Shown here piece by piece: positions 8,214-41,600 of a stretch of 64,000 bases of DNA. The DNA is from a virus. Position 1 is the first letter of the stretch. Every line of letters starts with the position of its first letter. The position numbers were made by a program, and so were the translations under genes. The stretch spans positions 1-64,000 of IMG/VR virus record IMGVR_UViG_3300033273_000208. One strand, 5' to 3'. The notes beneath the pieces were generated by a model that saw only the letters and a program-made list of their open reading frames with translations, had not been told where the DNA came from and ran no database searches.

Positions 8214-8292
8214 TGCTATTGAGTGGGAAAAGCACCTCAAGAAGAGTGGCGTGACAGTTTGCGAAGTGCACCCCGTTTTCACCGACTGGTGA
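8116..8292 (+). CDS. Small hypothetical protein, out-of-frame overlap
   Basis: 58 aa. The shape KYNVIWKRQKKKG, then TFLTLVDAIEWEKHLKKSGV, then VEVxPxF-like VCEVHPVF fits a common cyanophage small-protein pattern (a strand, a DAIxWE helix, a closing strand). It overlaps the preceding gene by 98 bases in another frame, and the promoter box at 8251 lies inside it. Function unknown. Confidence 0.55.
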   Translation: MTSNAKKYNVIWKRQKKKGHTSTVTATFLTLVDAIEWEKHLKKSGVTVCEVHPVFTDW

Positions 8293-8308
8293 GGTGTGGT
8301 AGTATATT
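8251..8308 (+). promoter_or_regulatory. Promoter module (GTGACAGT box plus -10)
   Basis: GTGACAGT at 8251 is followed 52 bases later by a -10-like TATATT (8303-8308), and the helicase ATG lies 30 bases after the -10 start. The same box-to-(-10) spacing recurs at 12745, 13981 and 15966, which is why I call it a module. Confidence 0.6.
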
Positions 8309-8332
8309 ATTTCTGTTGAGCGATCCACATAC

Positions 8333-9571
8333 ATGACCGTTGTTCTTCGTCCTCACCAAGATCGTGCCCTTGCAGCAATGCAAGTCAACGATAAAGGTCA
8401 AGTCATTGTTCCTACTGGCGGTGGCAAGACTTTCATTATGATTCAGGATGCACTGCGTCAACTGCAGCAATCTTCCACGATTGTTGTTGTTGCTCCTCGC
8501 ATTCTGCTTGCTACTCAACTGTGTGATGAGTTCATGCAGTTTGTTGACAGCAAGTATGTGCATGTATGTCATGCTCACAGTGGTGAAACTCATTACTTTC
8601 ACTCTACCAAGAGCAGCAAGATTGCTCTCTTCAACAACACCGCTCGTGCTGCAGGTGAGTCCTGCATTATCTTCACCACCTATCATTCGCTGGGTCGTGT
8701 AGTTGATGCAGGCATCAATATCAGTGCAGTGTACTTTGACGAGGCACACAATAGTGTTGCTAAGTCTTTCTTCGCCAGCACCTTTGCCATCTCTGATGTT
8801 GCAGAGCGTTGCTACTTCTTCACTGCTACTCCTCGCATCTCGCACAAGCATGAGCGTGGAATGCACAATCGTGAGGTGTATGGTACTGTTATCGAGAATG
8901 TTTCTGCTTCGGAACTGATTGCTAACGGTAGCATCATTCCCCCTCAGATTGTGCCATTCAACACGGATAACTCTCGCAACAAGGTCAACGCTCACGTTGT
9001 TGACAGTAACACTGTGCAGGATATCATCGACAATCTCGATGAGACTGCTGCTGCTAAAGTGTTGGTTGCAGTGCCATCCAGTCGTGTGCTAGGTAACATG
9101 ATCGGTCAGACTGATCTACTCCAACAACTCAAGGATCGTGGTTACCATGTTCTCCACGTCACCAGCAAGTTCGGTGCCTATGTAGACGACAAGAAAGTCA
9201 ATCGTGAGGTGTTCTTTGACACTCTCACCGCCTGGGGTGCAGATCCCACCAAGAAGTTTGTTATCTTCCACTATTCTATTCTGTCGGAAGGTATCAACGT
9301 TCCTGGTCTCACCCATTGCATTCTTCTGCGTAATCTCAACGTTGTTGAGATGGCACAGACAATCGGTCGTGTTATTCGTCTACATAAAGACGACGCTGCT
9401 GCTATTCGCAGCGGTGAACTCACCCCTGGTAAGTTTGACTTTTATAGGAAACCTTTCGGTTATGTGACTGTCCCTGTGCATCGCACATACGGTAAGCAAG
9501 TGACCAAGCGACTGCAGAATGTAGTTGATGCTATCTTCGTGAAAGGCATTCCTCCTCTGTCCCTCGTCTAA
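8333..9571 (+). CDS. SF2 DEAH-type helicase (UvsW-like)
   Basis: 412 aa with a complete set of superfamily 2 motifs: Walker A PTGGGKT (27-33), DEAH (136-139), TATPR (164-168), motif V-like LSEGINVPG (317-325) and motif VI QTIGRVIRL (342-350). In T4-like phages this type is represented by UvsW, which unwinds branched DNA and R-loops and moves replication from origin to recombination mode. At 412 aa it lacks the extra N-terminal domain of T4 UvsW (about 500 aa), so it may be a second helicase or a restriction-subunit-like translocase. It has its own promoter module and is followed within 6 bases by the lysozyme gene. Confidence 0.85.
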   Translation: MTVVLRPHQDRALAAMQVNDKGQVIVPTGGGKTFIMIQDALRQLQQSSTIVVVAPRILLATQLCDEFMQFVDSKYVHVCHAHSGETHYFHSTKSSKIALFNNTARAAGESCIIFTTYHSLGRVVDAGINISAVYFDEAHNSVAKSFFASTFAISDVAERCYFFTATPRISHKHERGMHNREVYGTVIENVSASELIANGSIIPPQIVPFNTDNSRNKVNAHVVDSNTVQDIIDNLDETAAAKVLVAVPSSRVLGNMIGQTDLLQQLKDRGYHVLHVTSKFGAYVDDKKVNREVFFDTLTAWGADPTKKFVIFHYSILSEGINVPGLTHCILLRNLNVVEMAQTIGRVIRLHKDDAAAIRSGELTPGKFDFYRKPFGYVTVPVHRTYGKQVTKRLQNVVDAIFVKGIPPLSLV

Positions 9572-9576
9572 ATCTA

Positions 9577-10068
9577 ATGCTTTACGATCAACCACCTGCA
9601 CCTGTATATCAGTGCGTTCAGTGTACTCCTGCCGAGCAGAAAACTCTAGCGTTTCTGCAAGATCGGGGTATTGTGAACAAGAATGCTCTCGCTACTGTGA
9701 TGGGTAACATCAAACAGGAGAGCAACTTTAACCCTCTCGTTTGTGAGGGTGGGGCAAACACTGGTTATCAGCGTTGCACTCGTGGAGGATTTGGTCTCAT
9801 TCAGTGGACTACGGAAGCAAGATACCTGGGTCTGGGTCGTTTCTGCAGGAAGAATAGTTGCAACGTCAACTCTCTTGAGGGACAACTGCGGTACATGTGG
9901 AATGAACAACAGTTCCAAACTCTCATTCCTAAGTTAAAGACACCAGGCAAAACCATCCCACAATATATGAATGACTCATGGTATTGGTTAGGGTGGGGTA
10001 TCCATGGCAATCGTACCCACTATGCATATCAATACCATCGAAAGATGGAACTGAAATATGTAATGTGA
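9577..10068 (+). CDS. Phage tail-type lysozyme
   Basis: 163 aa, fitting the phage tail lysozyme domain: NALATVMGNIKQESNFNP with probable catalytic Glu48, and GFGLIQWTTEARY (residues 71-83), the conserved GxxQW element. Such domains cut peptidoglycan from the tail tip, but this one stands alone, with no signal peptide and no tail domain, next to a helicase and far from the virion genes. It could be the endolysin or an injected virion enzyme. Six cysteines are present. A strong terminator follows. Confidence 0.8.
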   Translation: MLYDQPPAPVYQCVQCTPAEQKTLAFLQDRGIVNKNALATVMGNIKQESNFNPLVCEGGANTGYQRCTRGGFGLIQWTTEARYLGLGRFCRKNSCNVNSLEGQLRYMWNEQQFQTLIPKLKTPGKTIPQYMNDSWYWLGWGIHGNRTHYAYQYHRKMELKYVM

Positions 10069-10086
10069 CAATCCAATAACCTTCAC

Positions 10087-10113
10087 ACGGGGCAGCGTTG
10101 CTGCCCCGTTTCT
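10087..10113 (+). terminator. Intrinsic terminator
   Basis: A perfect 10-bp inverted repeat (ACGGGGCAGC with its complement) around a 3-base loop, followed by a short T-rich run. It closes the helicase-lysozyme unit just before the EcoRI-like gene. Confidence 0.85.
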
Positions 10114-10118
10114 GTGTG

Positions 10119-10124
10119 TATAAT
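10119..10124 (+). promoter_or_regulatory. -10 element of the EcoRI-like gene
   Basis: A consensus TATAAT 10 bases after the terminator hairpin, 31 bases before the ATG at 10150. That distance matches the 30-31 bases seen at the other promoter modules. A GTGACA lies 54 bases upstream at 10065, close to the 52-base spacing of the module, but only six bases match. Confidence 0.6.
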
Positions 10125-10149
10125 GAAGAGGTCCAAACGACACAAGACA

Positions 10150-10665
10150 ATGGCAGGCGGCATTCAGAAAGGCATGGTTGCTACTGATGCACATGCACGC
10201 AAACTTGACAACCAATGTAAAGTCCTCAAAGAGGAGATTGCAGACGTTTTGCAATACACTGGTGTGACATTACAGAAAAAACTGAAGAAGAATCAAATCC
10301 CTGGTGGTAAGGGTGCTTGCGAACCTGATGGTGGCGCATGGTTCTACAAAGGCAAACTGATTGCAGTGTTTGAAGGTAAGAAACAGCAGGACGCTGGTAA
10401 TGCTATCGAACGCTGGTTCAAGAACAACTACATCTGCCGCAAGATTAACCCTGATGTGTCATACGTCACCTTTGCAATCGGTGATGGTGCATACTCTGAT
10501 GGTGTGATCGGTAAGGCACTCAACGTTGCACATCTTGATGGGTTTGATACATATAATGCTGGTGGCAACTCTTGCTTCTTTAACACTCAAGGTTTTACAA
10601 AAGAAGAGATCCGTGCTATCATGATTAAAGTCCTTGCAGAGCGTATTCAGAATGAGGATAGTTGA
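10150..10665 (+). CDS. EcoRI-like type II restriction endonuclease
   Basis: 171 aa from ATG 10150. A PD-(D/E)xK nuclease core is visible: EPDGG (Asp60), FEGKKQ (Glu75, Lys77, Gln79), then DAGNAIERWFKN (81-92). In EcoRI (277 aa) the same blocks read PDGG with Asp91, EAKHQ with Glu111, Lys113 and Gln115, and AGNAIER with Asn141, Glu144 and Arg145. GNAxER is the motif by which EcoRI and MunI recognise the central AATT. The phage enzyme is about 100 residues shorter: the insertion between ExK and GNAIER is gone, as is most of the C-terminal part. No methyltransferase gene is visible. It has its own promoter after a terminator. It ends inside the next gene (14-base overlap). The fold is very likely; AATT cutting is a strong inference. 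Confidence 0.85.
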   Translation: MAGGIQKGMVATDAHARKLDNQCKVLKEEIADVLQYTGVTLQKKLKKNQIPGGKGACEPDGGAWFYKGKLIAVFEGKKQQDAGNAIERWFKNNYICRKINPDVSYVTFAIGDGAYSDGVIGKALNVAHLDGFDTYNAGGNSCFFNTQGFTKEEIRAIMIKVLAERIQNEDS

Positions 10666-11221
10666 CAACTACTTTCCACAATGGATGGTGGATAAGAATG
10701 CAGAAGAGTTCCAACTTATACCCGTAACTTATACCAACTCACCCTACGGTCAGTATGAAGTGAGTCGGTTCTTTGGTCAGTTACTTATCGATGAGGAGCG
10801 ATGGATTGCACCTATCGCCCCTCATTGGTTTGTGGACTATTTGCATATGTGTGTATGCAATGATCTCTTGTTGGACTATAAAATCCAAAAACTTGATCGC
10901 TGCCTGCTGAACGTGCAAACACCTGGGCAGAACGCCCAAAGTCACACGGATTGGGATGTTCTAAAGGAAAGCGACAGAATCAGTGGTCTGTATTACATCA
11001 GAGGCGATGGTGACACTCTATTTGTTAATGAACAGGGTGATACTATGAGTGTTGAGTGCAAACCAGGGCGATTAGTGCTGTTTGACAGTACAATATGGCA
11101 TGAGGGTTGTCCTCCTGTGAGTGAACCTATTCGATACACTCTCGGGTATGTCTGGAAGTGTGCCAGTCCACTCTCTGTCCACGATCCCCAGGATTTGTGC
11201 AACCCTGTGCCTATACTATGA
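10652..11221 (+). CDS. 2OG-Fe(II) oxygenase
   Basis: 189 aa from ATG 10652. HxD...H...R set: SHTDWD (His98, Asp100), TIWHEG (His150) and IRYTLGYVW (Arg161), with GRLVLFDS before the distal histidine as in phage prolyl-hydroxylase-like proteins. It overlaps the endonuclease gene by 14 bases and so shares its transcript. Substrate unknown. Confidence 0.82.
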   Translation: MRIVDNYFPQWMVDKNAEEFQLIPVTYTNSPYGQYEVSRFFGQLLIDEERWIAPIAPHWFVDYLHMCVCNDLLLDYKIQKLDRCLLNVQTPGQNAQSHTDWDVLKESDRISGLYYIRGDGDTLFVNEQGDTMSVECKPGRLVLFDSTIWHEGCPPVSEPIRYTLGYVWKCASPLSVHDPQDLCNPVPIL

Positions 11222-11243
11222 GGGTACCAAACAAGGACACCAA

Positions 11244-11426
11244 ATGTACGGAATCCGCCCCGCTCGTTACACCATCGAGGAACTGGTTGCACAGTCCCGC
11301 AATACTATCCGCAACGTGGAAAGTGTCACTCAACCCCAACCGATCGTGTGGTGCTCAACTAACGGTCGCTATGTTGTGAACCCTGAGTTTGCACAGTGGA
11401 AGAACGGTAAGTTCCAAGAAGTGTGA
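11244..11426 (+). CDS. Small hypothetical protein
   Basis: 60 aa from ATG 11244 (MYGIRPARYTIEELVAQ...). It has an N-terminal helix and a C-terminal part VNPEFAQWKNGKF. ACCAAACAAGGACACC precedes the start with only a weak GGA ribosome site. Function unknown. A hairpin follows. Confidence 0.65.
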   Translation: MYGIRPARYTIEELVAQSRNTIRNVESVTQPQPIVWCSTNGRYVVNPEFAQWKNGKFQEV

Positions 11427-11433
11427 TAGAATA

Positions 11434-11467
11434 TGGGGAAATCATTAAGAATGTCCTGATTTCCCCA
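11434..11467 (+). terminator. Terminator-like hairpin
   Basis: GGGGAAATCA pairs perfectly with TGATTTCCCC across a 12-base loop, with one more flanking T-A pair. The T-tract after it is weak (CTTTC), so it may be a leaky terminator or an mRNA end-protecting structure. It separates the endonuclease unit from the small-gene cluster. Confidence 0.6.
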
Positions 11468-11476
11468 CTTTCATGC

Positions 11477-11484
11477 TTAAATAC
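11477..11484 (+). promoter_or_regulatory. Possible T4-type late promoter
   Basis: TTAAATAC resembles the T4 late consensus TATAAATA. It sits right after a hairpin and 22 bases before the ATG at 11506. One or two mismatches make it a weak call. Confidence 0.4.
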
Positions 11485-11505
11485 TATTAACTTCGCAAGA
11501 TAAGC

Positions 11506-11697
11506 ATGGATTGGAGCAGCACCACAAAACAACAGAAACGTAAGGATGCATTTCACATCTTTTACGAAAGTGTGTTGAAACCCGATCATGAACTCCGTCA
11601 GGATGCTCATGAACAACAATGTTATCATGAGTTGTTAGAATGGAGGGGCGAAATCATCGCTTATCTCGATAAGCGTCGCAACGAAGAGTTTAACTAA
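11506..11697 (+). CDS. Small hypothetical protein
   Basis: 63 aa, mostly helical and charged (KQQKRKDAFHIFYESVLKPDHEL, seen in part). First gene after the hairpin at 11434. Its stop overlaps the next start (TAATG). Function unknown. Confidence 0.7.
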   Translation: MDWSSTTKQQKRKDAFHIFYESVLKPDHELRQDAHEQQCYHELLEWRGEIIAYLDKRRNEEFN

Positions 11698-11930
11698 TGA
11701 CCCAACACTTTACATGCACATCCACTGAACCATATGATCGCCATTGGTATAAAGTATGGTGCAAAGATAACACATGTAAAGTGTTTCAATCATATGATGA
11801 AGTCTTGACCGTTTATTGGAACTTTCACCAACACATTTCTCATGTCGAAGTCATTGACCCCAGACCAGAATCCGAAGGAGGATTTGCAACTAACACCCGA
11901 AGACGACGGTCTAAGGGTAAGCGAAAATGA
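11697..11930 (+). CDS. Small hypothetical protein
   Basis: 77 aa. HWYKVWCKDNTCKVFQSYDE, then VYWNFHQHISHVEVID looks like a small alpha/beta fold, with a very basic tail (RRRRSKGKRK) that could bind nucleic acid. The last 89 bases overlap the next gene in another frame. Confidence 0.65.
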   Translation: MTQHFTCTSTEPYDRHWYKVWCKDNTCKVFQSYDEVLTVYWNFHQHISHVEVIDPRPESEGGFATNTRRRRSKGKRK

Positions 11931-12096
11931 AGATGGAACTTTACAAATAGAGTGGGATCCTAATGATGCACGTTGGTCTATGTTCAATGACTTCACTGAG
12001 CAAGACTTCATCGACATGGTTACATCCTATTGCAAGACAGTTCTAGATGAACATGGTGTAGATTATTCTGACATCATTGAGGAAGATGAACTGTGA
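11842..12096 (+). CDS. Small acidic hypothetical protein
   Basis: 84 aa, acidic. EDGTLQIEWDPNDARWSMFN, then a helical IDMVTSYCKTVLDEHG segment. The ATG at 11842 lies within the preceding gene; no later ATG would keep the N-terminal part. The C-terminal half, which is outside the overlap, looks clearly protein-like. The stop overlaps the next start (GTGA). Confidence 0.65.
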   Translation: MSKSLTPDQNPKEDLQLTPEDDGLRVSENEDGTLQIEWDPNDARWSMFNDFTEQDFIDMVTSYCKTVLDEHGVDYSDIIEEDEL

Positions 12097-12263
12097 TCAC
12101 AGCATACATTGCATCTCTCACATTTGCATTAGGTGGAGCACTTGGTTTTAAGGTAGGTGTATTCCTTGGATGGAAATGGGGTGCAGATGATGAACGTTAT
12201 GTTGCATCCAAACTTAGACAACAAGCAGCACACGAGTTAGTTATCAAAGACCCATGGCAATAG
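12093..12263 (+). CDS. Small single-pass membrane protein
   Basis: 56 aa starting with GTG 12093 in a GTGA overlap. Residues 4-30 form one hydrophobic, glycine-rich segment (LTFALGGALGFKVGVFLGW) followed by a charged tail. It overlaps the next gene by 10 bases. Function unknown. Confidence 0.6.
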   Translation: MITAYIASLTFALGGALGFKVGVFLGWKWGADDERYVASKLRQQAAHELVIKDPWQ

Positions 12264-12469
12264 TAGTAAGACAGAAACGTCCAGTTGAACAAACATGGGA
12301 CTTTGATGATATTGACAGTGCTAAAGAGTTCGCTTACAATCAATACCACGAGAAAAGAGAACTGGTCACCGTGGAGATTGATGGTGCTATTGTGTGCCTA
12401 TTCAGTGATCCAGATCCAAATCTATCAAACGCTGACTCACACCTAGACTACAGGAATCAAACACTATGA
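12254..12469 (+). CDS. Small hypothetical protein
   Basis: 71 aa. WDFDDIDSAKEFAYNQYHEKR forms a helix, then VTVEIDGAIVCLF a hairpin, then an acidic tail. ATGA overlap with the next gene. Function unknown. Confidence 0.65.
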   Translation: MAIVVRQKRPVEQTWDFDDIDSAKEFAYNQYHEKRELVTVEIDGAIVCLFSDPDPNLSNADSHLDYRNQTL

Positions 12470-12711
12470 CACCCCGCCGCCTCACAATCCGCCAACTCAA
12501 CATCATTCTAGATTCACTCGCATCGTATCATCTAGAGGTTGAATCCTTTGACAATGATGAACTGGTTTCAGAAGTGTGGGATACGATTGATCTCATCGGT
12601 AACTATCGTGAGTGGATGATGCATCAATCGATCACGGATAACAGTGACATTGATGTACCTTACGATGAGATCACTAAGTTCTTCGAGGTGGGTGAGATTG
12701 GTGCACCATAA
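12466..12711 (+). CDS. Small acidic hypothetical protein
   Basis: 81 aa, all-helical by appearance, beginning MTPRRLTIRQLNIILDSL. Last gene of the run that begins at 11506; the module promoter at 12745 follows. Function unknown. Confidence 0.65.
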   Translation: MTPRRLTIRQLNIILDSLASYHLEVESFDNDELVSEVWDTIDLIGNYREWMMHQSITDNSDIDVPYDEITKFFEVGEIGAP

Positions 12712-12744
12712 TATCTATTTGCCCCATCGACCCTCTATGCCCCC

Positions 12745-12802
12745 GTGACAGTCGGCAAAGCGGTCTACAGGCGCTTGTGGACGCCTCTCAGGCGTGTATT
12801 AT
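12745..12802 (+). promoter_or_regulatory. Promoter module (GTGACAGT box plus -10)
   Basis: GTGACAGTCGG at 12745, continuing CAAAGCGGTCTAC, and TATTAT (12797-12802) exactly 52 bases from the box start. The ATG at 12827 is 30 bases after the -10. A small hairpin (ACGCC/GGCGT) lies just upstream of the -10. The rest of 12712-12826 shows nothing coding. Confidence 0.6.
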
Positions 12803-12826
12803 TAAAGAGTCAAAGGAACGCACCTC

Positions 12827-13099
12827 ATGCAACTTTCCAACTCCGTCTGCATCGTTGACTTCTTCCCCGAGGCATTTATTGCCGAGGCATGTGAAGAAAA
12901 GGGTGTAAAGACTGTCGTCAAGCGTTTTATCAAGCGTGTGACTTTCCCTTCTGATTATGGCAAAGCACAGCAATCTTGGTCTGTTGTTACTGCTCTCACC
13001 TTCTCCAATGAGGTCGCTGAGCGTATTGCTAACGGCGCTGTGGTTACTGGTTTCAACACTGAAAAGTGCCCTGACTCCTATACTCCTTGCTTCTGCTGA
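12827..13099 (+). CDS. Small hypothetical protein
   Basis: 90 aa. An N-terminal strand-helix (SVCIVDFFPEAFIAEACEEKG), then KTVVKRFIKRVTFPSDY, with CPDSYTPCFC at the C-terminus; the cysteine pattern could bind metal. First gene after the promoter module at 12745. Function unknown. Confidence 0.7.
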   Translation: MQLSNSVCIVDFFPEAFIAEACEEKGVKTVVKRFIKRVTFPSDYGKAQQSWSVVTALTFSNEVAERIANGAVVTGFNTEKCPDSYTPCFC

Positions 13100-13101
13100 T
13101 C

Positions 13102-13359
13102 ATGTTCCCCATTTATATCCAGCAACCCCCATCTGTGGGGTTCGCTGTTGATGAGATTCCCGTTGAGATTGTTCAGTATTGTGCTGACTTTACTCAACTC
13201 AATCCCTACGATCAATACAACAAAATGGAGCAAGATCTCCGTTTAGTTGACTGTTACTGGATGCATCTTGGTTATTATGGAACTCCTGCAAACATTATGG
13301 AAGAAGTTCGACGCGAACATTTCCGCACTCGTCCACCTCTACGTCCTGTCTTTGATTGA
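13102..13359 (+). CDS. Small hypothetical protein
   Basis: 85 aa from ATG 13102. Contains VEIVQYCADFTQLNPYDQYN and a helical IMEEVRREHFRT part. Stop and next start overlap (TGATG). Function unknown. Confidence 0.65.
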   Translation: MFPIYIQQPPSVGFAVDEIPVEIVQYCADFTQLNPYDQYNKMEQDLRLVDCYWMHLGYYGTPANIMEEVRREHFRTRPPLRPVFD

Positions 13360-13484
13360 TGCCTGACACTTACACTTTCACTGGTGATGCTGTTACCTTC
13401 CTTGGTTTGGTTGGTGTTACTTCGGCGTTTATCATTGTTGTTACTGCTTTCCGTCGTTTCTTCAACTCTCCTTACAACAAGTGA
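13359..13484 (+). CDS. Tiny single-pass membrane protein
   Basis: 41 aa. Residues 10-30 (AVTFLGLVGVTSAFIIVVTA) are one transmembrane segment, followed by FRRFFNSPYNK, positive-inside style. Overlapping stop/start signals on both sides support translation. It resembles small thylakoid-type membrane peptides in size only; no function assigned. Confidence 0.6.
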   Translation: MPDTYTFTGDAVTFLGLVGVTSAFIIVVTAFRRFFNSPYNK

Positions 13485-13693
13485 GCACTACAGTTTCTAA
13501 AGTCTTCAACGCGATTGATTTCACTGATAGTGAAGCAAACTGCTTGCTTCATTTCTTACAACAAGCACAAGAATGTGGGTATCCTAGTGCTAACGAACCC
13601 TACTACCCCACGATTAACACAATCCTGAACAAATACTACACCGAACTCAACAACCAAGAGCAAAACTGCACGTTTCGTGAGTATGACTACTGA
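13481..13693 (+). CDS. Small hypothetical protein
   Basis: 70 aa starting with GTG in a GTGA overlap. Contains ANCLLHFLQQAQECGYPSA, then PTINTILNKYYTEL; helical. The DNA after it continues into another overlap. Function unknown. Confidence 0.65.
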   Translation: MSTTVSKVFNAIDFTDSEANCLLHFLQQAQECGYPSANEPYYPTINTILNKYYTELNNQEQNCTFREYDY

Positions 13694-13901
13694 ATACACT
13701 AGAGAACAACTTATCGATGCATTATGTGCAGAGTGGGATTATCTCTGCCATGATGATTTCGATCCTGATGTAGATCCCACGACAGAAGAGTATCGTGAAG
13801 ATCTCAACAACTATACTCTCGAACAGTTAATCGCAGAAACGAATACTGACGAGGATGGTTACACTCTCACCGAATACATGGAGAACTATGGATGTAGTTA
13901 A
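13683..13901 (+). CDS. Small acidic hypothetical protein
   Basis: 72 aa from ATG 13683; a GTG two codons earlier is possible. Very acidic (DDFDPDVDPTTEEYREDL), the kind of charge seen in host-takeover peptides or DNA mimics, but that is speculation. Overlaps both neighbours. Confidence 0.65.
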   Translation: MTTEYTREQLIDALCAEWDYLCHDDFDPDVDPTTEEYREDLNNYTLEQLIAETNTDEDGYTLTEYMENYGCS

Positions 13902-13974
13902 TGCTTCACTGATTGCAACTGGTTTGTTGACTCTTGGTGGTCTAATCCTGTTTTTCAAAGTAATCTATCGGTAG
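13888..13974 (+). CDS. 28-aa membrane peptide
   Basis: 28 aa, MDVVNASLIATGLLTLGGLILFFKVIYR in two pieces: a polar start, then one transmembrane helix (residues 7-24) and a basic end. The start overlaps the preceding gene by 14 bases. Such a short frame could be chance, but its composition and the coupled position favour expression. Confidence 0.45.
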   Translation: MDVVNASLIATGLLTLGGLILFFKVIYR

Positions 13975-13980
13975 GGTAGT

Positions 13981-14039
13981 GTGCCAGTTGGTCAAACCGT
14001 CCACCATCGCTTGATTTCCGCACCAATCGGTGCAATACT
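13981..14039 (+). promoter_or_regulatory. Promoter module (GTGCCAGT box plus -10)
   Basis: GTGCCAGTTGG at 13981, continuing TCAAACCGTCCAC, nearly the same as at 15966. The -10 is AATACT at 14034-14039, 30 bases before ATG 14064. A TTGATT lies 17 bases upstream of the -10 and could serve as -35. Confidence 0.6.
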
Positions 14040-14063
14040 ATGAGAGTTAAAGAAAGCAACGCA

Positions 14064-14333
14064 ATGCAACTCCTCCCAAACGCAGTCACGACCGCAACCT
14101 ATCGTCGTGAGACCCGTTTTTTCTTCGATGATGATACCTCTGCGAGCGAGTTCAAGACCATCAAGAAACTGACCTCTTTTCCTGATTCTGGTGATGTCCG
14201 CCGCCGCACTTTGCGTGAGTGGCAGGAAATGAACCCCTCCATCGTTCGTATCACTTTCAAGGACACTCCTGTCCTGGTTGATAACACTCCCGACGAGATT
14301 ACCCGTTTCAAAGTAGCAAACCTCTCCCGATGA
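14064..14333 (+). CDS. Small basic hypothetical protein
   Basis: 89 aa from ATG 14064, chosen because the longer frame from 14040 would begin at the transcription start. Contains ATYRRETRFFFDDD, then KTIKKLTSFPDSGDVRRRT and MNPSIVRITFKDTPV. Function unknown. ATGA overlap with the next gene. Confidence 0.7.
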   Translation: MQLLPNAVTTATYRRETRFFFDDDTSASEFKTIKKLTSFPDSGDVRRRTLREWQEMNPSIVRITFKDTPVLVDNTPDEITRFKVANLSR

Positions 14334-14470
14334 TTACACAACAAGACCGTGAGTTTGTTGACTTTTTGTTTAGCAAACTCACGAAGCATGTTGACACCGA
14401 CATGATAGATTTGCAGGATGATGATACCTGCTGTGACCATCTTAACTTTCAACAACTCGAACTCTTCTGA
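14330..14470 (+). CDS. Small acidic hypothetical protein
   Basis: 46 aa, MITQQDREFVDFLFSKLTKH..., acidic and helical, ending in a CCDH region. Starts in an ATGA overlap. Function unknown. Confidence 0.6.
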   Translation: MITQQDREFVDFLFSKLTKHVDTDMIDLQDDDTCCDHLNFQQLELF

Positions 14471-14491
14471 ACACTCTTAACTAACACTCTC

Positions 14492-14752
14492 ATGCTTAAG
14501 AAAGTCTCCGAGTCTAAACAAACACCTTCACCAGTTATTGTCAACAAAGGAAAGCATGGATACAACTGCTGGGTGTATGTAAGCACGATTCAGAAGAATC
14601 AAAACACTTACCATAAGTATAAAGTTGCCAACAAGTTTGGCAAGAAGTTTGTATCTAAAAAGGATGCACTTATGTACGGTTGGGCAACAATCAACGGACA
14701 CGATGTTTCAACCTATGATGTACCAATGCGACACAAACCAGTCGCTCGCTGA
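14492..14752 (+). CDS. Small basic hypothetical protein
   Basis: 86 aa, lysine-rich. Central NCWVYVSTIQKNQNTYHKYKV, then KKFVSKKDALMYGWATINGH resembles short DNA-binding alpha/beta domains of integrases (AP2-like or SAM-like arm-binding), but I cannot confirm this. Function unknown. Confidence 0.65.
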   Translation: MLKKVSESKQTPSPVIVNKGKHGYNCWVYVSTIQKNQNTYHKYKVANKFGKKFVSKKDALMYGWATINGHDVSTYDVPMRHKPVAR

Positions 14753-14756
14753 CGGT

Positions 14757-14829
14757 GTGACAGTTCCTCAGGTGGTTTCTCGGTTTTGTATCACCACGAA
14801 CTACCTGGGTCTGGCATCTCGTGTATCTT
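14757..14829 (+). promoter_or_regulatory. Variant promoter module
   Basis: GTGACAGT at 14757 and TATCTT at 14824-14829, the same -10 as at 16018. Here the spacing is 67 bases, 15 longer than in the other copies, and the middle of the box differs. Weaker than the other four. Confidence 0.4.
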
Positions 14830-14856
14830 AGAAACATGGAAAACAACCAAACCGAC

Positions 14857-15084
14857 ATGACCATCACTCCCGCATTCATCGATGCTCTCGATAGCGTGCA
14901 GGCGTTCTGTCTTGACATGAACCCCGACATCGATATGGCATACGATTACGTCTGCGAGCAGGCAGGAATCGACTCCTTTGTTTGCAACAATGCTGCATGG
15001 GATATGTTCTACGATGTGTGGGAAAAGATCATGGATGACAACAATGTCCCTGATCATGTTCGTGCTGGTGACTATCGCTACTGA
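14857..15084 (+). CDS. Small acidic hypothetical protein
   Basis: 75 aa from ATG 14857 (MTITPAFIDALDSVQAF...). An ATG at 14836 would add 7 residues but lies about where transcription should begin; the 33-base distance from the -10 fits the 30-31 bases at other modules. Acidic, with three aromatic-rich helices (AAWDMFYDVWEKIMDD). Function unknown. Confidence 0.65.
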   Translation: MTITPAFIDALDSVQAFCLDMNPDIDMAYDYVCEQAGIDSFVCNNAAWDMFYDVWEKIMDDNNVPDHVRAGDYRY

Positions 15085-15121
15085 TTCACGACTTTCTCAC
15101 ACTAACCCCACTCAAATCATC

Positions 15122-15319
15122 ATGAATCGTTACTGCATCGAAGTTGACCGCATTGAACGTGATGGCAGCATTTTCCACCTCGTTCAATATAGGGAACTGA
15201 AACCCACTAAATCACTCTGGGCACACAAACTGCAGTTGGAAAAACTCACTAATCGCATTGCTGAGGAACTCAAATACTATCAAGTTCCTTACAAACGCTA
15301 TAGCGTGAGCATGGCGTAA
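15122..15319 (+). CDS. Small hypothetical protein
   Basis: 65 aa from ATG 15122; the longer frame upstream is read-through of another gene. An N-terminal beta hairpin (RYCIEVDRIERDGSIFHLVQY), then a long basic helix. Stop/start overlap TAATG with the next gene. Function unknown. Confidence 0.65.
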   Translation: MNRYCIEVDRIERDGSIFHLVQYRELKPTKSLWAHKLQLEKLTNRIAEELKYYQVPYKRYSVSMA

Positions 15320-15537
15320 TGCCTCCCAAATACGACGCAAACTGGTTCACTAACTACAACAAAACAATGGCAACTTACAACCCCTACGTTGATACCCTCG
15401 TCGAGATGGGTTACGATCGCACTGACTGCCAGATGGCAGGTCGTGATGCTACCTATCCTCGTACGATTCACGGTCGTGTTTTTAACACCAAAGAAGAGTA
15501 CGATGAGGCACTCGCTGACTTTATCAACGGTCTCTGA
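15319..15537 (+). CDS. Small hypothetical protein
   Basis: 72 aa. Contains NPYVDTLVEMGYDRTDCQMAG, resembling a small UBA-like helical unit, then VFNTKEEYDEALADFINGL. Function unknown. Confidence 0.65.
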   Translation: MPPKYDANWFTNYNKTMATYNPYVDTLVEMGYDRTDCQMAGRDATYPRTIHGRVFNTKEEYDEALADFINGL

Positions 15538-15545
15538 TTAACATC

Positions 15546-15707
15546 ATGCGAATCATTCTTGCTTCAGTAGTTGTAATCTTTGGCAGCATGATTGGTCTTG
15601 CTGCTATCAACTCAGTCTCTCAAATGCAGGACGCTAAGATGACACGATTCTGCAAACAAATCCCCGTAGGCGCATCCTACGATGAAATGTGCGCTAAGTA
15701 TCGTTAA
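15546..15707 (+). CDS. Small secreted or membrane-anchored protein
   Basis: 53 aa. MRIILASVVVIFGSMIGLAA is a signal peptide or membrane anchor. The short outer part has two cysteines (FCKQIP, MCAKYR) that could form a disulfide, as expected for a periplasmic peptide. It might act on lysis or superinfection, but the sequence does not show which. Confidence 0.6.
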   Translation: MRIILASVVVIFGSMIGLAAINSVSQMQDAKMTRFCKQIPVGASYDEMCAKYR

Positions 15708-15747
15708 TCACGCGCAACACTAACTAACAACAATCACACACACAATC

Positions 15748-15969
15748 ATGGACCGCTCTGAAATCCAACGCCAATATGTTGACTGCATCGTTGATGGCAT
15801 GGACCTTGACGATTGCTTGGCACTGTTAAAAGATTGCCTCAATGCTGACCTGGAAGTGTATAGTGACAAGGAACTGATTGAAGAGGTTAATCAATACTAT
15901 CCTCACCTGATTGAAGAGGATAGTGAAGAGAATAGTGAGGAACCAAGCGAAGCGACGGGTTGGCAGTGA
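15748..15969 (+). CDS. Small acidic hypothetical protein
   Basis: 73 aa, helical and very acidic at the C-terminus (IEEDSEENSEEPSEATGWQ). The promoter box at 15966 begins in its stop codon region. Function unknown. Confidence 0.65.
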   Translation: MDRSEIQRQYVDCIVDGMDLDDCLALLKDCLNADLEVYSDKELIEEVNQYYPHLIEEDSEENSEEPSEATGWQ

Positions 15970-16023
15970 CAGTTGGACAAACCGTCCACTATCACCGCAC
16001 AGACCCCTAAGATCGTGTATCTT
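15966..16023 (+). promoter_or_regulatory. Promoter module (GTGACAGT box plus -10)
   Basis: GTGACAGTTGG at 15966, continuing ACAAACCGTCCAC, and TATCTT at 16018-16023, 52 bases from the box start. The next ATG is 123 bases after the -10, so this transcript would have a leader of about 110 bases; in 16024-16140 I see no gene and no clear hairpin. Confidence 0.6.
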
Positions 16024-16140
16024 AGAGAAGTGGAGGGGAACAGGACACCCGATCATCACTCCTAGCGAGTCAGTTGGCAACTCTACTGCTGATGATAAAC
16101 TCCACTTTTTCCTAACACTTTTCACCTCTCTTTTCTCATC

Positions 16141-16473
16141 ATGCGTAAAATCGAGCAGGCAATGAACACCGCCATCGCTAACAACGACAACTGGCAATCT
16201 GGCAATACTTCTGTTCACTTTAACGAGGAAGAAAACCTCTCCGTTGTGCGTCTGCACGGCAACAAGATTGCCGAGATCGGTGAGGGTTTCATCCGCCTCT
16301 TTGACGGCGGTTGGCAATCCAACACCACCAAATCTCGTCTGAATGCTATTCTCTCTGAGCACGGAGAATGTGGTGATAAAGTATTCGCAAAGGACTTCGA
16401 TTGGTTCCTGCAAATGAATACTGCCCAAGGTCTTTCTGTTGTTCCTTTCTTCTCTTCGATGCGCCTGGGTTGA
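16141..16473 (+). CDS. Conserved hypothetical protein
   Basis: 110 aa. The pattern MRKIEQAMNTAI, NTSVHFNEEENLSVVRLHGNKIA, LFDGGWQSNTTKSRLNAIL is one I associate with small conserved proteins found across phages and plasmids; no biochemical function known to me. Stop/start overlap TGATG with the next gene. Confidence 0.75.
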   Translation: MRKIEQAMNTAIANNDNWQSGNTSVHFNEEENLSVVRLHGNKIAEIGEGFIRLFDGGWQSNTTKSRLNAILSEHGECGDKVFAKDFDWFLQMNTAQGLSVVPFFSSMRLG

Positions 16474-38600: not shown

Positions 38601-41600
38601 TGCAGTTGATGAAGAAATCGGTTCTGGCACTATCGTTAGCGTAACCGTTACCGATCCTGGTAAGGGATATACAACTGCAAGCATCGACGTTGATGGAATC
38701 CAAGGTATTCTTGGTCCCACGCTGACTGGTTCGGGTGCTGATTTGGATGTCATCATTCCTGATGAGGGATCTGGTGCATCGGTCTTCCTGACTGGTAAGA
38801 ATATTGGTAAGATCAAGAAACTCAAGAACAATGAGTTTGGTTATGGTTACTCCCACGACTACACTCTGAAACCTGAGATCACCTTCCCGATCAACCTGCA
38901 ACTCTTCAATACCTCGATTCTGTCGCAGATCACCATCACCGATCCTGGTGCTGGATACACCTCTGCTCCTGCGGTGATCATTTCTGGTGGCGGTGGTGTT
39001 GGTGCCGAGGCAGTTGCAGTCGTTAAGAACAACCGTCTGAGTGAGATCCAGATCAAGAATCCTGGTGCTGGTTACTCTTCAGAACCCAGCGTAACTCTGA
39101 AGTCTGAGTTCAACTACGTTGTCAACCTTGACTTGAACTACCTACAGTTCAACTTCCCTCATGGCATTACTAATGGTGCTGCTATTCAGTTCCGTGCCGA
39201 TGATGTTGGTACTACTGTTGGCGAACTGCCGAAGCCCAGTTCTGCTGGTTTGACCAGTTTGGTGGTGGGTCAAACCTACTATGCGATTGCTGGAGAATCC
39301 AACTCTCTGGAAGGTGACCAACTCCGCTTTGCACTGACTCCTGCCGACGCCGAGTCTGGTAACTTTATTACATTCCTGACTCAGGGTGCTGGTCGCCAAG
39401 TCCTGCTTACCGAGGTCTTCGGTGGTAAAGCAGAGGCAGTGGTTGAAACATCCAGATTCCTGGAAGGTGAGAAAGTCTATCAAGGCGATTCTGAAGAAAC
39501 CGCAACCGTTTTTGCATATGTTTCTGAGAATAATGGTTGGCAGCTTGGTCCCAAGATTCTGAAACTTATCAATGCTACTGGCACATTTGTGGTCGGTGAG
39601 CGTGTAAATGGTTCTGTGTCTCGTGCATCTGGTGTTATCGATAACGTTTCCCTTGCTAAGGGCGTCCTGAACATCGACTCTCTGACACAAACTCCTGGTA
39701 GATTCATCGATGACGTTGGTAAACCTTCCGAAATCGTTCAGAAGATTCAAGACTCCTTCTTCTACCAGAACTTCTCTTACGTCATTAAGTCCACGATTCC
39801 CATCAACCGTTGGCGTGAGCAAATCCTGGAGAATAACCACCCGACTGGTTTCAACATGTTCGGTCAGCTTCAACTGGCTGGTGGTAAGGATATCTCTGGT
39901 CGTAAGGTTGGTACTGAGTTCATCAAGCAGGTGAACATCAATGAGTACGCCAATGTCAACCAAATCACATCCTTCGGTGCTGCTCAACCGATCTACACAG
40001 ACTTCAACAATACTGAGGTTCTGTTCCGTAAGAAGCGTTTGACCAACTCTGAGGAAATCCTCACCTCCATCGTTAAGAAACTGGACGATATTGCCGATCA
40101 GTTTGATGGCATTCAAACAGCATTCAATCTTACGGTTGAGGGTGAACAGGTCATCGTTAAGAACAACCAGTTGTTGATCACCCTGAACGGTATCATTCAG
40201 GCACCTGTCGATGCTTACGATATTGTTGGTGGTCAGATCGTCTTCAAGGAAGCACCGAAGGCACCTTCTAAGGTTGTCTATCGTGATGTGGGTCTTGAGT
40301 TCCTGACTATAACTCGTCTGAACCTGACAGATGTTTCTGGCATCTATCCCGAGATTGGATATCAGATCTCTGGTGCTTCTAGCGATGCTTACGCAACTGT
40401 AGTCGCATCTGGTACGAATACAATCGATGTGGTTGATATTACAGGTGGTCCTTTCCAGAACAACGAAAGAATCGACGTTTCTGCTCTTGGATTCAGTGCA
40501 CTGATTGGTTCACAGGAAGTCCTCACACAGTCCACACTGTATGAGTTTGATGAAACTCTGGTTTGCACCAACCGCAACCGTGGCAACCCGACTGCTCAGG
40601 TTAACGCGATCAACTTGGATGAAAACGGCGATGCCAGCAGTGCAATCGTTGTAAGCAAGACAACTGGTACTGCTAAGTATGAGACTGGCGTCTTTGACTT
40701 CCGTCTGCAGGATATCATCTACTCCACTCGCTCCAACTTGGCGGCACGTATCACATTCCTGGCACCTTACAGAGATCCCGTCACTGACGATGTTGTTGGC
40801 GAACAGATCCTGACTGCTGGTTCTTCGTTCTATGGTCTGCTGTTTGAGCGTATTGTTAGCACCAGCTATCCGAACATCCTGTTGGATGATATTTCTAAGT
40901 CCACCATCACACCTACCGAACTCTTTGACAACGAAGAGCGTATCAACTCGTTCTTCCTTGACTTTGAAGAAGTTCGTTCCACTGAGGTAACTTATACCGA
41001 TCTTAGTAGTGGAGTCTTTAGTAATGGCGATGATATCCGTAACATTAAGGTCTTCTATAACAACCCCATTTACGGTGCTGCATATGGAACTGCTGCACCA
41101 CGTTATTACGATGCTAGAAATCGCATTTCTGCATCCAAAGATGAAATCATTGACTTTGCAACTGCAGAGATTGCAGTTGAGCATGAAGACTTCTACTATC
41201 CTGGTCAACCTCAAACCGACTCCCGTTCTAGATTCCGTGACGGTTATCGTCTGATCATCAAGAACAAGGATTGGATTGTTGCCAAGACTTATGAGGATAT
41301 GATCCTCCAGTATCCTTCTCTGGTGGTTCCGAATAGTGATAAGTGTAAGCGTGACTTGGGACATTTTGTTGATGCAGTTGCATACGACACCTATGCAGGT
41401 GGTAACAAGTATGCTCGCAAGTTTATCCAGATGTACTTCACAGGTCAGGGTCTTGGTTATATCAACCAGCAACTTGCAGAAACCACTTGGGCATATGGTC
41501 GTGCAGCAACCTACATGAAGGATGCTATCACTAACCAACTGTCTGGTACTGAGACTATTGATTCTGTGTTATACACCAAGTATCAAGATCTTACAGTTAC

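Follow-up and report, generated by a model that had tools for sequence, protein, structure and literature searches.

The window analyzed here is a stretch of 64 kb (positions 1 to 64,000) out of the 73,883-base virus contig IMGVR_UViG_3300033273_000208, and the element in question is a putative promoter module in which a conserved box precedes a -10 element at a fixed distance. The region examined contains many small genes on the + strand, one gene for a DEAD/ResIII helicase, and one Kyanoviridae Gp96 gene. A 9-kb stretch of the window was matched by 183 phage records, all of them (183/183, judged by name) Synechococcus or Prochlorococcus cyanophages; the matches of the listed records fall chiefly in the helicase gene and extend over 12-14% of the stretch, and none of the 183 records covered 80% of it. 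From these relatives, the contig is assigned by inference to a T4-like cyanophage.

Five boxes of one kind lie on the + strand, beginning at 8251, 11160, 12745, 13981, and 15966. The original prediction, made from the sequence alone, had listed boxes at 8251, 12745, 13981, and 15966, each followed 52-53 bases on by a -10-like hexamer, and all four are present. It had also placed an ATG 30 bases after the -10 in three cases, which is correct for 8251, 12745, and 13981 when measured start to start. The site at 11160 (GTGCCAGTCC..CTGTCCAC, with TATACT at +52) was absent from that prediction. The components of the five modules, with the open reading frames (ORFs) downstream and the scores given by a box and -10 matrix built from relatives, are as follows.

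8251-8274, + strand: box 1, GTGACAGTTTGCGAAGTGCACCCC, with a degenerate right half; under the threshold of the relatives' matrix
8303-8308, + strand: -10 TATATT, +52 of box 1; downstream ORF 8333-9571, DEAD/ResIII-type helicase
11160-11183, + strand: box 2, GTGCCAGTCCACTCTCTGTCCACG; under the threshold of the relatives' matrix
11212-11217, + strand: -10 TATACT, +52 of box 2; downstream small ORF 11244-11426
12745-12768, + strand: box 3, GTGACAGTCGGCAAAGCGGTCTAC; matrix score 15.7 bits
12797-12802, + strand: -10 TATTAT, +52 of box 3; leader AAAGAGTCAAAGGAA, then ORF 12827-13099
13981-14004, + strand: box 4, GTGCCAGTTGGTCAAACCGTCCAC; matrix score 24.0 bits
14011-14016, + strand: possible -35 TTGATT of the box 4 module
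14034-14039, + strand: -10 AATACT, +53 of box 4, TG-extended; ORF 14064-14333
15966-15989, + strand: box 5, GTGACAGTTGGACAAACCGTCCAC; matrix score 22.1 bits
16018-16023, + strand: -10 TATCTT, +52 of box 5; GTGGAG..CTCCAC leader, then ORF 16141-16473 (Kyanoviridae Gp96)

The shorter motif GTGNCAGT occurs 20 times on the two strands of the 73,883-base contig, and 7 of the 20 copies have a -10-like hexamer at 51-53 bases. Five of these seven are in the cluster described above, and the other two, at 39584 and 67873, are on the minus strand; in 200 second-order Markov sequences, the number of spaced copies averaged 0.77 and never exceeded 4. Upstream of the helicase genes of S-RIM12 and ACG-2014b, a box-like promoter was recognized by eye as well.

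The box proved to be one form of a 24-bp dyad, TGTGMCAGTT-N4-AACTGKCACA, and many sites are perfect. Its common form, TGTGMCAGTTGGTCAAACTGTCCAC, contains one extra central base and has CTGTCCAC or GTGTCCAC as its right half. The small inverted repeat (GAC...GTC) described in the original prediction does exist, but it belongs to this larger dyad and does not stand alone. With the first base of the -10 set at -12, the dyad is centered at about -53 and the box spans about -64 to -41. A search of IMG/VR for the perfect dyad TGTGNCAGT-N6-ACTGNCACA gave at least 120 matches, versus 17 for one scrambled dyad. Among the matches listed were 125 distinct sites; at 115 of them one or both flanks carry a -10 at 51-53, compared with 7-33 in other windows; a -10 in register was present on both sides of 25 of the 125, suggesting divergent promoters. 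A single dyad of P-SSM2, at 14593 (+) and 14614 (-), likewise has a -10 in register on both sides. A further observation at these sites is a T4 late-promoter-like sequence, TATAAATA, whose start is 57-60 bases away from the dyad at 9 of the 245 oriented sites (loci L403-L522), where early and late starts perhaps overlap.

The fixed spacing was examined from both ends of the module. In the box-first direction, GTGNCAGTTGGNCAAACYGTCC was found at 34 IMG/VR loci (35 sites), and every one of the 35 sites (26 distinct) is followed by a -10-like hexamer at 51-53, compared with 0-3 of 26 in other three-base windows. Occurrence of the motif elsewhere with no spacing to a -10, which the original prediction had named as evidence against it, was thus not seen for the full box. 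When the box was relaxed and a TG was required at +50, 128 distinct sites were retrieved among the matches listed, with duplicates merged only if 70 bases were identical. Under a strict rule, 113 of these have a -10 at 51-53 (0-11 in other windows), and under a looser rule, which accepted positions 52-56 and as few as three of six matches, the number was 116. Three of the 116 (L090, L094, and L101) resemble chance hits by eye; of the 12 sites that failed the looser rule, 8 repeat two unrelated sequences. A separate set of 33 sites took in relaxed-pattern sites and three sites from published phages. In ten known phages, 38 of 49 box sites have a -10 in register or, counted per orientation, 42 of 62 versus a mean of 3.8.

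In the promoter-first direction, promoters were picked by their -10 and leader alone, using TGTATNNTNNAAGAGTCAAAGGA for the first (TGTAT) class and TGCNATACTATAAGAGTCAAAG for the second (TGCNATACT) class. The sets were made non-redundant at 85% identity, giving 154 promoters among the matches listed for the first class and 62 for the second. Both sets contain a conserved block that starts sharply at -51 before the TG and ends at -27; upstream of -51 the information is at most 0.31 bits (the maximum being at -64 in the second class), and some information is also present in the spacer between the block and the -10, at the -35 position and beside the TG. Boxes scoring >5 bits (leave-one-out, best of three shifts) were found in 147/154 and 53/62 promoters, or 200/216 together, and in 135/154 and 49/62 with no shift allowed. 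Upstream background scored in the same way exceeded 5 bits at 5/3850 and 6/1550 positions.

The two classes differ in how the box relates to the -35. In the second class, a better -35 match goes with a lower box score (rho -0.54, p 6e-6); among the seven sites with the weakest boxes, six carry a 5-of-6 match to the -35. The combination of a weak box with a good -35 in one class fits a dimeric activator that replaces the -35. The view of the original prediction, that the box is too far upstream to be a -35 and looks like an activator site, is well supported by the position of the dyad near -53, the fixed spacing, and this trade-off in one class.

Clear copies of the box were identified in 16 of the 19 T4-like cyanophage records examined, with weak copies in two and none in one. 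The carriers are syn9, S-H35, S-WAM1, S-RIM12, ACG-2014d, S-RIM8, P-SSM2, P-SSM4, S-CRM01, S-SZBM1 (one site), S-SCSM1, ACG-2014b, S-SM1, P-HM1, S-RIM2, and Sf-CH5, and they include Prochlorococcus phages and the freshwater phage S-CRM01. Clear copies are also present in S-SKS1, called T4-like on its protein matches to S-RIM12. In Syn9 the box stands upstream of several small genes with the -10 in register (4/4 sites in 44-62 kb). Matrix scans returned six module sites in S-RIM12, all on the + strand at 37.5-45.7 kb, and seven in S-SKS1, all on the - strand at 147-161 kb, against a null of 0.4 in each case, with a matrix trained partly on a few sites from these two phages. No box was found in T4 (pattern search, and relaxed dyad in two 20-kb stretches) or in Ma-LMM01 (pattern search), and plasmids queried with one S-RIM12 module gave no match.

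The dyad with its sharp upstream border, the fixed distance to the -10, the spread among cyanophages, the clustering on one strand in the two genomes scanned, and the -35 trade-off of one class are all seen in the sequence. We propose, with a probability of about 0.82, that each module is an activator-dependent phage promoter used by the host RNA polymerase, with the dyad centered some 53 bp before the predicted start. A dimeric DNA-binding protein sitting on the 24-bp dyad would take over the role of a good -35 and recruit polymerase of the sigma-70 type to an extended -10 (TGTATATT / TGCCATACT), and the modules would probably be read early. Clusters of small genes agree with the original assignment to early or middle small genes; the timing in that assignment we only infer, as we do the start point, the activation, and the dimer.

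Several results weigh against this proposal. In the window, the bare 11-base consensus is no more frequent than chance predicts (36 matches versus 37.4 expected, one mismatch allowed), and the matrix built from relatives recovers just three of the five sites (12745, 13981, and 15966), those at 8251 and 11160 being degenerate; it also picks 22085, where the -10 is poor and the match is probably due to chance. The -10 is out of register at 11 of the 49 sites in the ten phages. The TGTAT class displays no trade-off between box and -35 (rho 0.04, p 0.61), and in the five promoters of this class with the weakest boxes the -35 is matched at just two to four of six positions, both among the matches listed. 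S-PM2 and S-RSM4 have only weak copies (pattern search of whole records, relaxed dyad in 20 kb each), and S-SM2 gave no match above its control in the pattern search. In the T7-like cyanophage KBS-P-1A, considered below, the distance from box to TATACT is 47 and not 52, about half a helical turn off, and a matrix scan found no module, possibly because TATACT sits at 47. Finally, an exact search for the common form in a genome collection of 84,980 species (perfect dyads not searched) gave two matches, in Roseburia and Nesterenkonia contigs, and none in cyanobacteria, so that no host regulon was seen in this search.

The alternative that survives best leaves the dyad as an activator site and changes the source of the activator: the protein may be phage-encoded or carried in the virion, and the modules would then be delayed-early or middle promoters of a MotA-like switch. 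We regard this as a real possibility, at clearly less than even odds. The exact-form search turned up no box in cyanobacterial genomes, and the dyad abounds in T4-like cyanophages, as would be expected for a core phage regulator. Cyanophages can encode regulators, such as the MarR-type protein described for P-SSP7 (PMC9692554), and a putative middle promoter has been reported in Syn9 and a second cyanophage, according to a 2010 review (PMC2984593). Against a phage-encoded activator, Pfam identified no regulator domain among seven window proteins, and a matching box is also present in T7-like cyanophages.

KBS-P-1A contains GTGCCAGTTTGTCCAACTGTCCAC inside a 600-base non-coding stretch. In the linear records of S-SBP1 and S-TIP37 this stretch falls close to the left end; the remaining records have their ends at other places. 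GTCCACC, from the right half, is kept in 5/5 aligned T7-like phages and TGTCCACC in 4/5; the left half is clear just in KBS-P-1A and MedDCM-OCT-S45-C4. Conservation of this region may partly reflect shared descent, and Syn5 and P-SSP7 had no match. Separately, five T7-like cyanophages share a conserved inverted repeat (TCTCGACTCTCCCT..AGGAGAGTCTCGA) on the downstream side of the box region (L053 800-870; L386-L389). Of the 18 KBS-P-1A frames that matched S-RIM12, seven correspond to separate genes, and the remaining 11 are alternative frames of psbA or thyX. Five of the seven have Pfam assignments (Photo_RC [PsbA], Thy1 [ThyX], the outer-membrane-like Phage_OMP, DUF6321, and DUF6450), one has a sub-threshold chlorophyll-binding match, and one has no family. 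No known Pfam DNA-binding regulator is among the seven, which also argues against a phage-encoded activator, although proteins of unknown function are included. A MarR_2 search of 28 records found none and is uninformative, because it also missed the reported P-SSP7 protein.

The occurrence of a matching box in T7-like cyanophages hints at a host-encoded activator. This is the weakest link in the argument; it leans toward a host protein, and we judge a host origin of the binding protein slightly better than an even bet and a phage origin slightly worse. The phage transcription factor tentatively suggested in the original prediction is unsupported: no candidate was found, and the T7-like box points rather to the host. 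A bolder extension, in which one conserved host activator, from freshwater Synechococcus to Prochlorococcus, offers a common early entry point to T4-like and some T7-like cyanophages, is put forward as a doubtful but possible case.

The remaining alternatives deny the dyad an activating role. Repressor operators are typically dyads, so the form of the site would suit a repressor or silencing site at which a host defense protein or a phage regulator shuts the promoters. The dyad, however, keeps a fixed distance from the core promoter, on its upstream side, and the better -35 of box-poor promoters in one class fits activation; repression is therefore quite improbable. Still less probable is an RNA stem-loop, in which the box is the terminator of the upstream gene and the module is a promoter-terminator shuffling cassette resembling those called PeSL. 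The modules are placed between small genes, and the box and the spacer fold somewhat better than shuffles that preserve base composition only (mean z -1.51 and -0.83); the 40 bases upstream, however, have no structure excess (mean z -0.18), and inspection of the aligned sites by eye showed no T-run after the dyad. Variable paired bases of the dyad do not covary (0.452 observed versus 0.478 expected, p 0.77, 126 sites), which favors a protein-bound DNA site over an RNA hairpin, and with no terminator stem-loop supported, the PeSL or hairpin reading was set aside. Chance repetition of a short motif, to which the behavior of the 11-base consensus alone would conform, can practically be dismissed given the tests of the full box and its spacing.

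The original prediction had treated a site at 14757 as a variant of the same box with a 67-base spacing. It is instead a left half-site followed by another conserved element, with these components.

14757-14805, + strand: composite element, left half-site GTGACAGTTCC plus GGTGGTTTCTCGGTTTTGTATCACCACGAACTACC; GGTNGTTTCNCGGTTTTGTATC in five contigs, each time upstream of a -10
14824-14829, + strand: -10 TATCTT of the composite promoter; ORF 14836-15084

The second upstream element of this promoter (14757-14829) reads GGTGGTTTCGCGGTTTTGTATCACC..GAACTACCTG and lies behind the left half-site. Its GGTGGTTTCTCGGTTTTGTATCACC begins 51 bases upstream of the TG of its own -10 and is kept in five further viral contigs, in three gene contexts (judged by eye), one of which is the window's gene. 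On this sequence evidence, the 14757 site is best classed as a separate, separately conserved promoter type.

Leader sequences recur beside the modules. The leader GAGTCAAAGGA, directly after the -10 (12797-12826), recurs in many promoters of this type, which raises the possibility that the two move together as one cassette. The leader of the Gp96 gene (16028-16110) has GTGGAG..CTCCAC ends, and related leaders (GTGGAGGGG..) follow -10 elements in many loci. Its fold is unexceptional (z -1.23), and an Rfam scan of the window at gathering thresholds, this leader included, identified no family.

The architecture resembles several known systems. In T4 middle promoters, a phage-specific box and an extended -10 likewise replace the -35; the MotA box lies near -30, whereas the 24-bp dyad is near -53, so the -30 placement is not shared. 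RpaB activates cyanobacterial promoters from HLR1 sites at roughly -66 to -45, a similar position, but HLR1 consists of TTACA direct repeats unlike the dyad. The abstract of Doron et al. 2016 reportedly describes a novel early-gene regulatory element in the T4-like cyanophages Syn9 and P-TIM40, and that study is also said to have found host-like promoters for middle genes, in a pattern conserved in T4-like cyanophages. The split between box and -35 promoters seen here fits that early/middle division, and we therefore take the box to be, probably, the Syn9 early-gene element. The phage group is the same, and Syn9 itself carries the box before several small genes; the dyad, the -35 trade-off, and the T7-like box may be part of what was described for that element or may be additional to it.

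Host PhoB has been reported to bind promoters of S-PM2d cyanophage genes (PMC10976474), an earlier example of host-activator use by a phage, although the Pho box consensus is another sequence. The 2010 review states that motA is absent from cyanomyoviruses, that sigma-70-like motifs are located in front of S-PM2 and Syn9 early genes, and that control of early and middle transcription in cyanomyoviruses, which lack the T4 modifiers, was unclear (PMC2984593). The PeSL cassettes of T4-type phages (Arbiol 2010, Comeau 2014, as cited in PMC4503421) are alike in being repeated early-promoter cassettes between small genes, but they carry a terminator stem-loop, for which the modules here give no support. 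No description of the box motif was met in the portions of the literature searched, box letter strings included.

Judged from sequence conservation, the module is a real and widespread cyanophage promoter architecture, and the element itself is probably already known for these viruses. An exact dyad at a fixed position provides a bait for finding the protein that binds it. If that protein is encoded by the host, phages of the main marine primary producers would share a dependency on it, and one would predict mutations in it that confer resistance. Were a single conserved host activator to serve T4-like and some T7-like cyanophages alike, the phages would carry near-perfect operators that their hosts lack, and infection by unrelated phages would hang on a single host gene.

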